Of a stretch of DNA of 64,000 nucleotides, positions 38,869-45,045 are shown piece after piece; positions within the stretch are counted from its first letter, which is position 1, and each line of letters begins with the position of its first letter. The notes beneath the pieces were generated by a model that was given only the letters and a program-made list of their open reading frames with translations, had not been told where the DNA came from and did not search any database. Origin of the DNA: Solemya velesiana gill symbiont (GTDB taxonomy: Bacteria; Pseudomonadota; Gammaproteobacteria; Chromatiales; Chromatiaceae); contig NZ_MPRJ01000001.1 in NCBI RefSeq assembly GCF_002020805.1, positions 1 through 64,000 of the forward strand, read 5' to 3'. The translations under genes and the position numbers were made by a program.

Positions 38869-39210
38869 CTAGTCTTCGTTGCGAGGGTAACGGTCATCTA
38901 GGTTGGCTGGGCAGAGCACGTTACGCATGGTGCCGATCAGGGTCAGCAGCTGGCCATTTCGGATACGGTAGTAGATACGGTTGGCCTCTTTGCGGGAGGT
39001 AACGATATTCTTGTTCCGCAGTTGTTCCAGGTGCTGGGAGATGTTGCTCTGTGAAGTGCCGGTTCTTTCAACGATCTCACCTACAGATAGCTCGTCATCG
39101 CCCAGGGAGCATAGAATCTTCCAGCGCAGCGGATGGGCCATGGCCTTGAGCGCATTGGCAGTGAGCGTTGTGTCTTCGTTTGGAATTGTGGGTTCTGTAG
39201 GATCAGTCAT
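38869..39210 (-). CDS. ArsR-family repressor with SqrR/BigR-like cysteine pair
   Basis: 113 residues from the ATG at 39210 (MTDPTEPTIPNEDTTLTANA), chosen for the AGGAA site and normal length. The winged helix covers about residues 18-95, with recognition helix TSQSNISQHLEQL. There is no ArsR ELCVCDL metal site; instead KILCSLGDDELSVGEI. The only cysteines are Cys34 and Cys100, 66 residues apart, the spacing of the thiol pair in SqrR (41/107) and BigR (42/108), which sense persulfide. A role as a sulfide/redox repressor is inferred from that. It starts 19 bases after the response regulator gene. Confidence 0.85.
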   Translation of the reverse strand: MTDPTEPTIPNEDTTLTANALKAMAHPLRWKILCSLGDDELSVGEIVERTGTSQSNISQHLEQLRNKNIVTSRKEANRIYYRIRNGQLLTLIGTMRNVLCPANLDDRYPRNED

Positions 39211-39229
39211 TGTGTATTCCTGTTGCGTC

Positions 39230-40102
39230 TCAGGGGAGGTTGCCGGCCGTCTTCGGCTCATGCTGGGGCTCCTCCCGGACATATCCGGTCATGTCTTTTG
39301 CAATGCAGATGATGTCAGAGATTTCTCCATTGTCGTCGGTTATGGCGGTGCGTGAAAAGAGTATCGGCACCCGGCGATCATCCTTGGCGATGAATCGGGC
39401 ATCGATCTTCTTGAGGGCGCCGACGCGAATCAGGGCCTCAAGCCAGGTGCCCATGAAGGCGCCGGCCTGCTCATCGGCCTCCTCTTCAAAGACGTCGCCG
39501 ATCTGCATGCCGATCAGTGAGCCTTCCTCGTATGCAAGCATTTCGTAGGCGGTGGGATTTGCCTGGATGATGGTGCCTTCGGGATTGAGCACCAGCAATG
39601 CCTCGCCTATGTGGCGAATGATATTCTCGAGGTGTTGCTTGGCCTGGGCCAGCTCTGCGGTGCGCGCGGCGACTTTGCGCTCCAGCACCGTGTTGAGTTC
39701 CCGCTCTTTCTCGATCAGGCGGAAATAGGTACTGATCTTATTGATGAGCTGGTTGTCGTCGATGGGCTTCAGCAGGTAGTCGACAGCGCCTACATCGTAG
39801 CCCTTCTGCTGGAACTCCTGGGTCTTGAAGGCAGCGGTCAGGAAGATGATCGGTATGTCCCGGCTCTTCTTGCGGACCTTGAGTATGGAGGCGGTCTGGA
39901 AACCATCCATTTCCGGCATCTGAATGTCCAGGATGATCAGGTCGATCTTCTGGTCGCCCAGGGCGATGTCCAGTGCCTGCTGTCCGGAGGTGGCTTCGAA
40001 AATCTCCACGTCCATATGCTGCTGAACCAGCGTACGCAGGGTAAATAGATTGTGCTCGTGGTCGTCGACAATGAGCAGCTTGAAACCGCTGTATCGTTTC
40101 AT
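39230..40102 (-). CDS. response regulator with PAS output domain
   Basis: 290 residues. The receiver domain has LIVDDHEHN, the phospho-acceptor Asp59 (LIILDIQMPEMDG), Thr89 and Lys112 (LLKPIDD). A coiled coil follows, then a PAS domain (IIRHIGEALLVLNPEGTIIQANPTA...). There is no HTH, kinase or cyclase domain, so output must be by protein contact or through an unknown partner. It is encoded 14 bases after the hybrid kinase, the likely phosphodonor. Confidence 0.9.
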   Translation of the reverse strand: MKRYSGFKLLIVDDHEHNLFTLRTLVQQHMDVEIFEATSGQQALDIALGDQKIDLIILDIQMPEMDGFQTASILKVRKKSRDIPIIFLTAAFKTQEFQQKGYDVGAVDYLLKPIDDNQLINKISTYFRLIEKERELNTVLERKVAARTAELAQAKQHLENIIRHIGEALLVLNPEGTIIQANPTAYEMLAYEEGSLIGMQIGDVFEEEADEQAGAFMGTWLEALIRVGALKKIDARFIAKDDRRVPILFSRTAITDDNGEISDIICIAKDMTGYVREEPQHEPKTAGNLP

Positions 40103-40116
40103 ATTTGATCTTCTGC

Positions 40117-42456
40117 TTAGACGGGATCAGCTGGCAAATGCCGGTTGATCGCATCTTTCAATTCCTCGGGCTCGATCGGCTTGCTGATGAAGTCATCGGC
40201 TCCTGCTTCAAGACACACCTGGTTGGACTCCCCGTGGATATCCGCGGTCAGGGCGATAATAAGCAGGTCCGCATGTTTCTTGATTGCTCTTATTTTTTTG
40301 ATCGTATCACAGCCATCCATACCGGGCACCATGAGGTCCATCAAGGCGACAGAAAAACTGTCGTCCTCCTCTATCGCCTCCAGGGCCTCGTCCTGGTCGC
40401 CGGCTGCAGTAACCTTCAGTCCCCAGGTTTCCAGCAACGGGGCCAGGGACAGCAGCGTCTGCATATCACTGTCGATTACCAGGATACTGTGACCTTCAAA
40501 ACCGATCTCGCCTGTTGGGGTGGTTTCAGGCGTCGGTGTATCGATGCTGGGTTGAGGTTCAGTCTCTTCCGGCATTTCGTCTTCGGTGTCGATGAGCCCT
40601 TCGTCCACCAGTGAGCTGTCGAACTGGAGGGGCAGGAGCAGATGAAAAGTCGAGCCCTCATGCTCCCGGCTCTGGAAATCGATGTGGCCGCCCAGCATAT
40701 GGGCGAGTTGCTGGCTGATGGTCAAACCCAGCCCGGTGCCGCCGTAACGCCGATTGGTGGCGCCATCGGCCTGGCGGAAGGCGTCGAAGATATGCTCCTG
40801 TTTTTCATCGGGAATACCGATACCGCTGTCCTGGACGCTGATGCGCAGTGGGCAGTCGCAGGCATCGCTCTTTGGCGCGCCCTCAAGAGAGAGTGTGATA
40901 CTGCCCTGGTCAGTGAATTTGACGGCATTTGCCAGAAAGTTCTTTAGTATCTGCCGTATTTTGTCGACATCGGAGACGATCCTGCGTGGTGCGTCATCGT
41001 TGATCCGTAGATCGAGATTCAATCCCTTTGCATGGCATTGGGGCTCAATCAGGGAGACCAGGTCCTGCAGCATCTCCGGCAGGGCAATGGTTTCGATGTT
41101 GAAATGGGTGCGCCTGGCTTCAATGCGGGAGAGGTCGAGAATATTATCGATCAGGGTCTGAAGATCGCTGCCTGCCTTGTTGATCACCTTGGCCTGTTGT
41201 TGCTGTTCCGGATTCAGACCGCTCTTTTCGTCTGCAAGCATCTTGGAAAGCAGGAGGATGGAGTTTAGAGGAGTTCGCAGTTCATGGCTCACGTTGGCCA
41301 GGAACTGTGACTTGTACCGGTTGGACTCTTCCAGCTCCTTGGCGTGGGCACGCAGGTTGCGGGTATTGCTGCTGTGTTTTGCCGAGAGCCGCGAGAGGTC
41401 CTCTCCCAGTTGTTTCAGCTCTTGCGGTTTTCGCCAGTTGAACGCGATTGGCTTATCCGTCTCCAGGATGCGCTGAATGCCGTCTGTCAGTTCCTGGCTC
41501 AGGCGTTCTGCTCTGCGGGCGATGAGCTGGGAGGCGAACCAGACCGCTATTGCCAGGGCGAAGACGATGCTCAGCACACGCAGTGACAGCGCATTCCGGA
41601 AATCGGCGATGGGGGAGGGATCGACGGTACGGCCAACCCAGAGTGCACCGGCGCGCTCTGTTCTGAACAGGGGTACCCACATGATCTGCTGTCCGTCACC
41701 TTCCCAGAGTGCCGGCTTCCCCTGTTTGAACATGTCAGCTAGGCCAGGGTAGCGCTGAAAGGCGTTGCCGGCGGGTGCGGCCAGGTCGGCATGCTGGAGA
41801 AATTTGCCATCGTCGTGGACCCAGAGTGTGTTTCGGTAGTAGCGGGCCATGCCGCCCACGTCGATGCTGATTATCACGGCACCCACTTTTGCCTCTGCGC
41901 CAATAGGGCTGACAAGTCGCAAGGTCATGAAACGGCGGGGGTCCTCTGCGGCCGGGTCGATACTGATCGGGCTCACCAGTGCGCGACCGCTGGTATCCTT
42001 CAAGGCCGCCTCAATAAACTCTTTGGGCGTTTGGGGCGGGCGCTCGGTGGTCGGTTGCCACTGCTGGGTGGTAATGTCCCGGTCGAGCCAGAATCGCTCT
42101 CTTCCCTCCTGGTCGAAGAAGACGATCTGCACGATATCGAGCTGATCCTGCAGAATCTGGTTGATCCACTGGCTGTACTGGGTGCGGGCCAGATCTATCG
42201 CCTCAGGGGTGGACTCTCCCTTGCCCATGGCTGCGCCAGGCTCTGGTAGCTTGGCCAACAGGCGTACCATCTCGTCACGACTTGCCAGGTGCTGGTCGAG
42301 ATCGCGGAAATCCGCACGCAGGTTCTGCAGGTGTGCCTTGTGGTAGAAAAGCTCCATCTTCTCCAGCACCAGTGGCAGGTTGATCAGCACGGCAATGATC
42401 AATGGTGCGAGGGCGAACAGGAAGAAGAACAGCAGTATCTGGGTGCGAAGCTTCAC
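40117..42456 (-). CDS. membrane hybrid sensor histidine kinase
   Basis: 779 residues. A membrane segment at about 7-31, a periplasmic dCache-like sensor (about 40-285) and a second membrane segment at about 292-312 are followed by a HAMP-like linker. The dimerisation box has His391 (FLANVSHELRTP). The ATPase has NFLANAVKFT, DSGIGIP and GGTGLGL. A C-terminal receiver has ALMDLMVPGMDG and ISKP, with acidic DSD in place of the common DD. No ligand can be read from the sensor. It is first of the leftward kinase-regulator-ArsR unit. Confidence 0.92.
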   Translation of the reverse strand: MKLRTQILLFFFLFALAPLIIAVLINLPLVLEKMELFYHKAHLQNLRADFRDLDQHLASRDEMVRLLAKLPEPGAAMGKGESTPEAIDLARTQYSQWINQILQDQLDIVQIVFFDQEGRERFWLDRDITTQQWQPTTERPPQTPKEFIEAALKDTSGRALVSPISIDPAAEDPRRFMTLRLVSPIGAEAKVGAVIISIDVGGMARYYRNTLWVHDDGKFLQHADLAAPAGNAFQRYPGLADMFKQGKPALWEGDGQQIMWVPLFRTERAGALWVGRTVDPSPIADFRNALSLRVLSIVFALAIAVWFASQLIARRAERLSQELTDGIQRILETDKPIAFNWRKPQELKQLGEDLSRLSAKHSSNTRNLRAHAKELEESNRYKSQFLANVSHELRTPLNSILLLSKMLADEKSGLNPEQQQQAKVINKAGSDLQTLIDNILDLSRIEARRTHFNIETIALPEMLQDLVSLIEPQCHAKGLNLDLRINDDAPRRIVSDVDKIRQILKNFLANAVKFTDQGSITLSLEGAPKSDACDCPLRISVQDSGIGIPDEKQEHIFDAFRQADGATNRRYGGTGLGLTISQQLAHMLGGHIDFQSREHEGSTFHLLLPLQFDSSLVDEGLIDTEDEMPEETEPQPSIDTPTPETTPTGEIGFEGHSILVIDSDMQTLLSLAPLLETWGLKVTAAGDQDEALEAIEEDDSFSVALMDLMVPGMDGCDTIKKIRAIKKHADLLIIALTADIHGESNQVCLEAGADDFISKPIEPEELKDAINRHLPADPV

Positions 42457-42551
42457 AGGTGTGCAATCTGCATTGGCCAGGTTATTTCACAACCATACCC
42501 TATCGTTGCATGGATTCAAACTGAGCGTGTTGCTCCTGTAATATACCGCGA

Positions 42552-43378: not shown

Positions 43379-44580
43379 ATGGCTAAGAAGAAAAAAACAC
43401 TGAGAACAATACATCGGCCAAGAGATGTGCTGGCCTAGTTGTGGAGACGGTGCCTGACATCAACCCAGGTGATAGGCATTACGGGCAGTTGTGGCAAAAC
43501 AAGCGCAACCCGTTTTCTTGACCATGCCTTGTCCGGAAGCTTGCAGGGGCATGGTGTCCACCTGTTCAACGGCCAAGGCTTTGTTTCAAAGAACATCCTG
43601 AAAGTAAGGCGTTCGGATCGTTACTATGTTCAGGAGGTGAGTGGGCATCGCCCGGGATTTCTCGCCACGGTCATGCCTCTGCTCAAGCCTACGATATCTA
43701 TCGTGACCGCCGTTGGGCAGGATCACTACACAAACTTTCGCAGCCGCGAGGCGACTGCCCAGGAGAAGCAAACCCTGGTGCGTGTGCTTCCACGGAAAGG
43801 CGTTGCAATACTCAATTTCGACGACCCCTTTGTGCGGCCAATGGCTGATGTGACCAATGGGCGGGTGATTGGTTACGGCCTGTCTGCGGATGCGGATTTA
43901 CGTGCGTCGGAAATTTCTGCAACCTGGCCGGGCAGGCTCTCGTTCAACGTGGACTATAACGGAGAAAAAGCCAGGGTCGAGACCAGGTTGGCCGGTGAAA
44001 TCTGGCTTAGTTCGGCATTGGCGGCGATTGCCGTGGGGCTTGATCTGGAAACCTGCGCCAAGCGAATGGCGACAGTCGAAGCTGTACCTGGCAGCATGGC
44101 TCTGTACAAAACGCCTGCGGAGAGCTGGTTCATAAACGACACGGCCAAGGCGCCATACTGGACAATTGAGTTGGCCTGTCGGACCTTGTTGAATGCAGTT
44201 TCACCACGTAAGACAGTGGTGTTTGGCCCGTTTTCCGATATGGGTGGCGGCTCCAGCAAGAAATACCGTAAAGCAGCAAGGGGGCGCTGGACATTGCCGA
44301 TCGCGTGGTTTTTGTCGGTGAGATCGCCAGTCACGTGGAGCGCATGGTCGATGGCTATGCTCCCGGTCGCCTGGTATGTATGCCTACGGTTCGGGAAGCT
44401 GCCGCTTTTCTGGCTGCAGATCAACTGGAAGGCGAGGTCACGCTGGTCAAGGCTAACGGCAAGGCGCACCTTGAGCGTTTGTCTTTATCGCAGCAAGAAC
44501 CGGTTGCCTGCTGGAAAGAGAGCTGCGGTCTCGACAGCGATTGCAGTGTTTGTGATTCAAGACGCCGCCGGGCAGGCTGA
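43379..44580 (+). pseudogene. Mur-ligase-family gene with amber codon and frameshift
   Basis: The ATG at 43379 gives MAKKKKTLRTIHRPRDVLA, then TAG (43436-43438), and the same frame continues with the ATP loop VIGITGSCGKTSAT, typical of MurC-F, FolC and cyanophycin synthetases. The central domain continues (VTAVGQDHYTNFRSREATAQEK, ILNFDDPFVRPM). At the run of five G (44280-44284) the frame is lost; one more G joins KYRKAARG to ALDIADRVVFVGEIASHVER and on to the TGA at 44580. The intact protein would be about 400 residues and lack the N-terminal UDP-binding domain. Its substrate is unknown. Confidence 0.8.
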
Positions 44581-45045
44581 TCAAAGCGCTTTAACCAGTT
44601 CCAGCACCTGTTCGACATGGCCCTTGGGCTTGGTGTCATAGAGGGGGTGCTGAACGATGCCGTTTTTATCGATGACGAAGGTGGAGCGCAGTATGCCCAT
44701 ACGCTTCTCGCCGTGGGCCTCTTTTTCGCGCCACACGTCGTAGTCCTCGCACATCACGCCATCGATATCCGCAAGCAGGCGGATGGTGAGTCCGTGCTTG
44801 TCCCTGAATGCACCGTGAGAGAGGCAGTTGTCGTGGCTGATGCCGAGGATTTCGGTATCCAGTTCAGAAAATTCATCGTGCAGATCGGAGAACTCCAGGG
44901 CCTCAATGGTACAGCCGGGGGTATCGTCCTTGGGATAAAAATAGAGCACCAGGTTTTTCTTGCCGGAAAAGTCGGCAAGCTGGGTCATCTCCAGGTCAGC
45001 ATTGGGCAGCTCGAAGTTCGGTGCGGGATCACCAAGCTTCAGCAT
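44581..45045 (-). CDS. bcp: peroxiredoxin Bcp (PrxQ)
   Basis: 154 residues. The peroxidatic cysteine is Cys45 (DDTPGCTIEAL). The usual PrxQ resolving cysteine five residues later is Leu50, so this is a 1-Cys-like or alternative-resolving form; other cysteines are in DNCLSH and VMCEDY. It reduces peroxides and lipid hydroperoxides in the cytoplasm. It is convergent with and directly abuts the broken Mur-like gene. Confidence 0.93.
   Translation of the reverse strand: MLKLGDPAPNFELPNADLEMTQLADFSGKKNLVLYFYPKDDTPGCTIEALEFSDLHDEFSELDTEILGISHDNCLSHGAFRDKHGLTIRLLADIDGVMCEDYDVWREKEAHGEKRMGILRSTFVIDKNGIVQHPLYDTKPKGHVEQVLELVKAL

Follow-up and report, generated by a model that had tools for sequence, protein, structure and literature searches.

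A kinase, a receiver-PAS regulator and a dithiol ArsR repressor as a possible two-input sensory unit in sulfur-oxidizing Chromatiales and related gammaproteobacteria

Do three regulatory genes lying side by side in the genome of the Solemya velesiana gill symbiont bring two signals to one DNA-binding protein? The window analysed here, a stretch of 64,000 nucleotides (contig NZ_MPRJ01000001.1, positions 1 to 64,000), encodes a histidine kinase of 779 residues (40117-42456; Pfam HisKA, HATPase_c and Response_reg), a receiver-PAS response regulator of 290 residues (39230-40102; Pfam and AlphaFold2 (AF2) model) and a dithiol ArsR-family repressor of 113 residues (38869-39210; PF01022 and the NCBIfam ArsR/SmtB subfamily). 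All three genes, here called the triad, are on the minus strand, as are the domains and codons given for them below. A sequence-only reading of this DNA had placed three regulators on one strand with gaps of 14 and 19 bases, and the open reading frames of the window bear this out (40103-40116 between kinase and response regulator, 39211-39229 between response regulator and ArsR). The best explanation is that they form one co-transcribed sensory unit, a predicted operon. That this unit joins two sensory inputs to one DNA-binding output in sulfur-oxidizing Chromatiales and related gammaproteobacteria is a reading that we hold tentatively, rating it somewhat short of even; such a two-input circuit is a reasonable hypothesis, plausible and unproven.

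We found no description of the triad in openly readable papers and, within that literature, regard it as a previously undescribed combination of known kinds of regulator. Nor did we find a master regulator of sulfur oxidation in purple sulfur bacteria described in searchable papers. The unit occurs in about nine-tenths of the sampled Chromatiales, is accompanied by sulfur-oxidation genes (dsrA/dsrB-type or soxB matches) in 38 of the 38 triad genomes tested, and contains a known type of persulfide switch, which makes it a small and testable gene set. Judged by its sequences, the triad is a good candidate for reduced-sulfur sensing in these bacteria. If the two inputs do meet, the triad would offer a rare example of a two-component system with a separate one-component redox repressor as its DNA-binding output.

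Conservation of the triad

In a class sample of 369 gammaproteobacterial genomes, profile cut-offs of at least 165 bits for the triad ArsR and at least 340 bits for the response regulator each selected 26 genomes, with the next best matches at 143 and 193 bits, respectively. The two sets of 26 genomes are identical, and the genes are adjacent in each. Among 195 sampled Chromatiales genomes the response regulator is present in 177 (150 of 168 among those of good quality), and all 18 genomes that lack it also lack the triad ArsR. The triad ArsR was found in 22 of 24 response regulator-positive Chromatiales checked. In one exception (G017) the contig edge is reached just after the response regulator gene; in the other (G504, 89% complete) the response regulator has no adjacent ArsR. 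Unrelated sequence stands at the ArsR position there (L346, G504:C82), which could mean that the gene was truly lost or that the genome was misbinned, and this is the only such genome seen. A phylum sample of 398 genomes held no triad carrier except the window's own genome. Co-occurrence in relatives, which the sequence-only reading had set as a refutation test, is near-perfect.

Gene order is constant as well. In 30 loci of relatives and 10 named genome records, arsR comes directly after the response regulator gene and shares its strand; strand and order are the same in all loci in which both were found. The kinase precedes the pair in 35 of the 37 loci with enough upstream sequence; in the two loci without an adjacent kinase (G009 and G019) the response regulator and ArsR genes are still together. 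In G019 a rhodanese gene (L056 7477-7902, minus strand) takes the kinase's place, about 100 bases upstream of the pair on the same strand, and is the sole direct sulfur-gene neighbour of the triad that we saw. The response regulator and ArsR are hence the constant core, and the kinase is a usual companion. Sequence identity is 62-94% for ArsR, 64-83% for the response regulator and 41-64% for the kinase, and the flanking genes vary between genomes (zapE/slyX, metH, truC, bcp and others). Counted over 141 loci, several loci per genome included, many genomes have short gaps or overlaps of a few bases at both joints, and 4-base overlaps of kinase and response regulator are common. Because order and strand are constant and both junctions overlap in many genomes, the linkage is more than chance.

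The triad is kept in almost all sampled Chromatiales and in a few other sulfur-oxidizing gammaproteobacteria; named carriers include Sedimenticola, Thiocapsa roseopersicina, Allochromatium humboldtianum, Candidatus Thiosymbion and Thiohalobacter. In a Thiocapsa-like genome (G023), two identical 1.74-kb copies of an insertion element (L050 751-2490 and 3785-5524) interrupt the kinase and response regulator genes, and arsR is intact.

The cysteine pair of the ArsR protein

The start codon assigned to the ArsR gene is the ATG at 39210; an AGGA lies upstream of it, and it yields the 113-residue product; an alternative in-frame ATG at 39282 would overlap the response regulator gene, and the proteins of relatives align from the 39210 start. 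The product matches PF01022 at 1.7e-13 and the NCBIfam ArsR/SmtB subfamily NF033788, both above cut-off, and it reaches 69.6 bits against the NCBIfam BigR equivalog, for which the cut-off is 155, so it is not BigR proper. The solved proteins that match it best are HlyU, NolR, YgaV and BigR, and its two cysteines align with those of HlyU. The third helix (DELSVGEI) contains no CxC, and the C-terminal helix lacks a set of metal ligands. C34 (TGC, 39109-39111) and C100 (TGC, 38911-38913), 66 residues apart, are the only cysteines, exactly as had been read from the letters of the window. Conservation of the pair in orthologues had been set beforehand as a refutation test; it is invariant in all 81 distinct triad-type ArsR sequences, 76 of which have two cysteines in total. 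The recognition-segment residues Q54-S55-N56 and S58-Q59-H60 are also invariant.

Cysteines in helices 2 and 5 define a reactive-sulfur cluster (cluster 4) that is separate from the hydrogen peroxide (H2O2) sensor RexT, which has its cysteine in helix 3 (PMC10509353). SqrR, BigR, YgaV, HlyU, SoxR and sHdrR carry the same cysteine pair, for which tetrasulfide bridges are reported (PMC12423496; see also PMC10451225 for the properties of the dithiol ArsR family). The triad ArsR has in common with this group the winged helix, the absence of a metal site and the helix-2 and helix-5 cysteine positions. It differs in being part of a two-component operon and in usually having no adjacent sulfur-oxidation, rhodanese or transport genes. 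In the group, sulfurtransferase, rhodanese or sulfur transport genes are common neighbours, although they do not strictly define membership. With a winged helix-turn-helix, an aligned and conserved cysteine pair and no helix-3 CxC, it has the features of a dithiol persulfide-sensing ArsR protein, and very probably is one. The SqrR/BigR-type spacing to which the sequence-only reading had drawn attention does place the protein among the dithiol persulfide sensors; the same spacing is found across the clade, including in the second ArsR protein described below, and so does not by itself point to a special circuit.

Dithiols react with several oxidants, and a peroxiredoxin gene neighbours the triad in some genomes, so the pair might sense another thiol oxidant (peroxide, disulfide stress or nitrosation) instead of persulfide. 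We consider this very unlikely. RexT-type sensors use a helix-3 cysteine and none is present in that segment of the triad ArsR (ELSVGEI), so that peroxide sensing of the RexT type is rejected. The cysteine positions instead match the persulfide cluster, one member of which, HlyU, did not respond to H2O2 or glutathione disulfide (GSSG) (PMC10509353), and the triad carriers are sulfur oxidizers.

The second dithiol ArsR, arsR2, is approximately 54-64% identical to the triad ArsR; it occurs in most of the triad genomes and is widespread in the class (most of 225 gammaproteobacterial genomes with an ArsR match). It carries the same cysteine pair in 20 of 20 sequences and the same recognition-segment residues; because these residues are identical, the two proteins may bind related sites. 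Its neighbours, named by reading their sequences, are a YibN-like rhodanese, secB and gpsA, and the copy in the window's genome lies at G000:C36:24500-24772. In a tree, triad ArsR and arsR2 are split by a fully supported branch (100/100). The triad ArsR stands in a two-component operon and has W30 (81/81), N103 (80/81) and L104 (81/81), the last two soon after the second cysteine, whereas arsR2 belongs to no two-component operon, lacks both this tryptophan and the N103-L104 pair, and has a sulfurtransferase neighbour. Residues peculiar to the triad protein would fit contact with a partner.

From the kinase to the repressor

The kinase starts with GTG, at a position that agrees with the starts of 30 orthologues, and consists of a first transmembrane helix, a periplasmic dCache sensor, a second transmembrane helix, HisKA, HATPase_c and a C-terminal receiver (D707). 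The phosphoacceptor H391 (codon 41284-41286), in the H-box SHELRTPL, is invariant in 34 of 34 aligned orthologues; together with the HATPase_c match (3.8e-28, Pfam) it identifies the protein as a two-component histidine kinase. The sensor (residues approximately 29-285, 41602-42372) was assigned from its AF2 model, which has a predicted local distance difference test (pLDDT) score of 86.9 and shows the double PAS-like extracellular fold of dCache domains, with matches to 2p7j (Z 16.5, root-mean-square deviation 7.5 over 247 aligned residues) and 3lid (Foldseek 4e-11). This fold fits the periplasmic signal that had been proposed to enter through the kinase. The domain is conserved among orthologues and has no conserved cysteine, so that it probably binds a small molecule located outside the cytoplasm.

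The response regulator consists of a receiver (residues 10-123), a signalling helix (116-164) and a PAS domain (157-272), and neither Pfam nor the AF2 model reveals a DNA-binding, enzymatic or other output domain, in agreement with the earlier description of a regulator with PAS alone. Its receiver fold matches solved structures at Z of approximately 21. The receiver active site is complete, with D13, D14, the phosphoacceptor D59 (codon 39926-39928), T89 and K112 invariant in 36 aligned sequences. The receiver of the kinase is intact in the window, but its aspartate is kept in 16 of 34 orthologues and is Ala, Asn or Gly in others, so that the aspartate expected of a functional hybrid-kinase phosphorelay is not conserved across the family and this receiver is degenerating. 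Because the kinase receiver has lost its aspartate in about half of the orthologues and the response regulator's site is complete, direct phosphotransfer from H391 to D59 is the simplest and the likely route. Hybrid kinases of the TorS, BarA and LuxQ type share HisKA, HATPase and a C-terminal receiver with the triad kinase, which differs from them in having no Hpt domain, in its dCache sensor and in the degenerate receiver aspartate of its orthologues.

Taken together, the favoured reading would run as follows. With its dCache domain the kinase would bind a ligand outside the cytoplasm and would autophosphorylate on H391; D59 of the receiver-PAS protein would then take the phosphate straight from the kinase, whose own receiver would be dispensable. 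Because it has no output domain, the receiver-PAS protein would act through protein contact mediated by PAS. ArsR, the sole DNA-binding member, would repress as long as C34 and C100 are not linked by persulfide or sulfane sulfur, a chemistry carried over from SqrR, SoxR, sHdrR and HlyU. In the last and weakest step, the phosphorylation signal would tune the same ArsR-controlled response, through contact with ArsR or on the same targets; the near-obligate linkage of the two genes would likeliest exist because of this adjustment. A comparable arrangement involves YrkD, a repressor of the CsoR type. In Bacillus licheniformis, YrkD and NreBC likewise pair a sulfane-sulfur repressor with a co-transcribed two-component system and place two inputs on one response, although NreC itself binds DNA, the cluster holds the targets sqr and pdo, and the proteins are unrelated to those of the triad (PMC9918477).

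A stronger version would make ArsR itself a two-input repressor, its DNA binding set both by a cytoplasmic persulfide bridge and by the (phosphorylated) receiver-PAS protein touching it directly. The two-component system would thus borrow ArsR as its DNA-binding output, and in purple sulfur bacteria and their relatives ArsR would be a central regulator of the sulfur state. We regard this version as unlikely.

Several observations weigh against a meeting of the two inputs. The linkage could reflect shared expression only, and evolutionary distances of ArsR correlate with those of the response regulator and the kinase at r of approximately 0.6, compared with 0.87 between the latter two. One genome (G504) keeps the response regulator with no ArsR nearby. 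Sulfur genes were not found as regular neighbours of the triad in the loci examined. Many sulfur oxidizers do without the triad: approximately 31 of 42 triad-less genomes, chosen mostly for carrying arsR2, have dsrA or soxB, so the association with these genes is one-directional and the triad is no general requirement for sulfur oxidation. Finally, footprinting of the regions upstream of the kinase (35 loci) and of bcp (12 loci) gave no shared inverted repeat.

The weaker correlation and the solitary response regulator would both fit genes that are co-expressed but separate in function, with ArsR a persulfide repressor of distant genes, the kinase and response regulator signalling to another partner, and the operon shared as the same conditions want both. 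A response regulator with no DNA-binding domain could have any partner. However, its presence and loss are joined almost perfectly with those of ArsR over many families, the two stay together even where no kinase is adjacent, and the genes overlap; separate function is therefore a doubtful account, if one of real weight.

The footprinting bears on a further account, in which ArsR represses its own operon as a local feedback, often together with a nearby bcp, and is released by persulfide or oxidant, so that it would set how much of the two-component system is made. Control of nearby genes is common among ArsR-family proteins, and a BCP/PrxQ peroxiredoxin gene is found close to the triad in 12 loci (L037, L039, L040, L044, L045, L047, L054, L060, L062, L076, L079 and L081), usually just upstream of the kinase and on the same strand. 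With no inverted repeat common to the kinase or bcp upstream regions, no evidence of autoregulation found upstream of the kinase, and a plain TTGAC-type promoter at bcp in several loci, we rate local feedback as clearly unlikely.

Promoter motifs and neighbouring sequences

The expectation of an ArsR operator near sulfur genes was disappointed, since the kinase, bcp and dsr regions and the arsR2 motif yielded no triad-specific operator. A strongly conserved palindrome, TATCCC-N4-GGGATA, does stand upstream of dsrA. Counted at 10 or more of 12 positions in 59 dsrA 5' regions of 56 genomes (L232-L251 and L276-L315), it is present in 28 of 32 regions from genomes with the triad and in 22 of 27 from genomes without it, and the dsr promoter was rejected as a triad target on this ground. 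To our knowledge, no regulator is known for this palindrome. Its copy in the window's genome is at G000:C107:16611-16626, and it is absent, for example, from G033, G065, G209, G250 and some second dsr copies. An element resembling CCCCAT..GTGGGGT follows it within approximately 10-20 bases in most gammaproteobacterial reverse-dsr promoters, whether or not the genome has the triad. The palindrome was also rejected as a mark of the sox operon, given that the site near soxB in the window's genome falls within the soxA reading frame. In that genome a gene for a LuxR-type response regulator, another candidate sulfur regulator, stands before the soxA cluster (L263, G000:C65).

Among the arsR2 loci (L066-L075, L182-L185 and L338-L345), many promoters contain the motif TTTATTATTGTAT-N4-ATAAA. 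It was rejected as an operator shared with the triad because no copy was found close to the triad genes and most of its genome-wide matches look like chance.

In the window, the triad is flanked by zapE downstream and by the divergent truC upstream, and no sulfur genes occur among the flanking open reading frames scanned. The 95 bases between kinase and truC (42457-42551) are the presumed promoter region of the operon, in which no conserved palindrome was found. Further along, a Mur-ligase-like open reading frame (43439-44641) has a frame that seems broken near 44280, its last third being unrelated sequence; a plausible continuation lies in another frame at 44305-44580, and the gene may be a pseudogene or an assembly error. 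A coproporphyrinogen III oxidase (hemF-like) open reading frame at 1670-2293 matches family positions 2-146 of 295 only and looks truncated or frame-broken.

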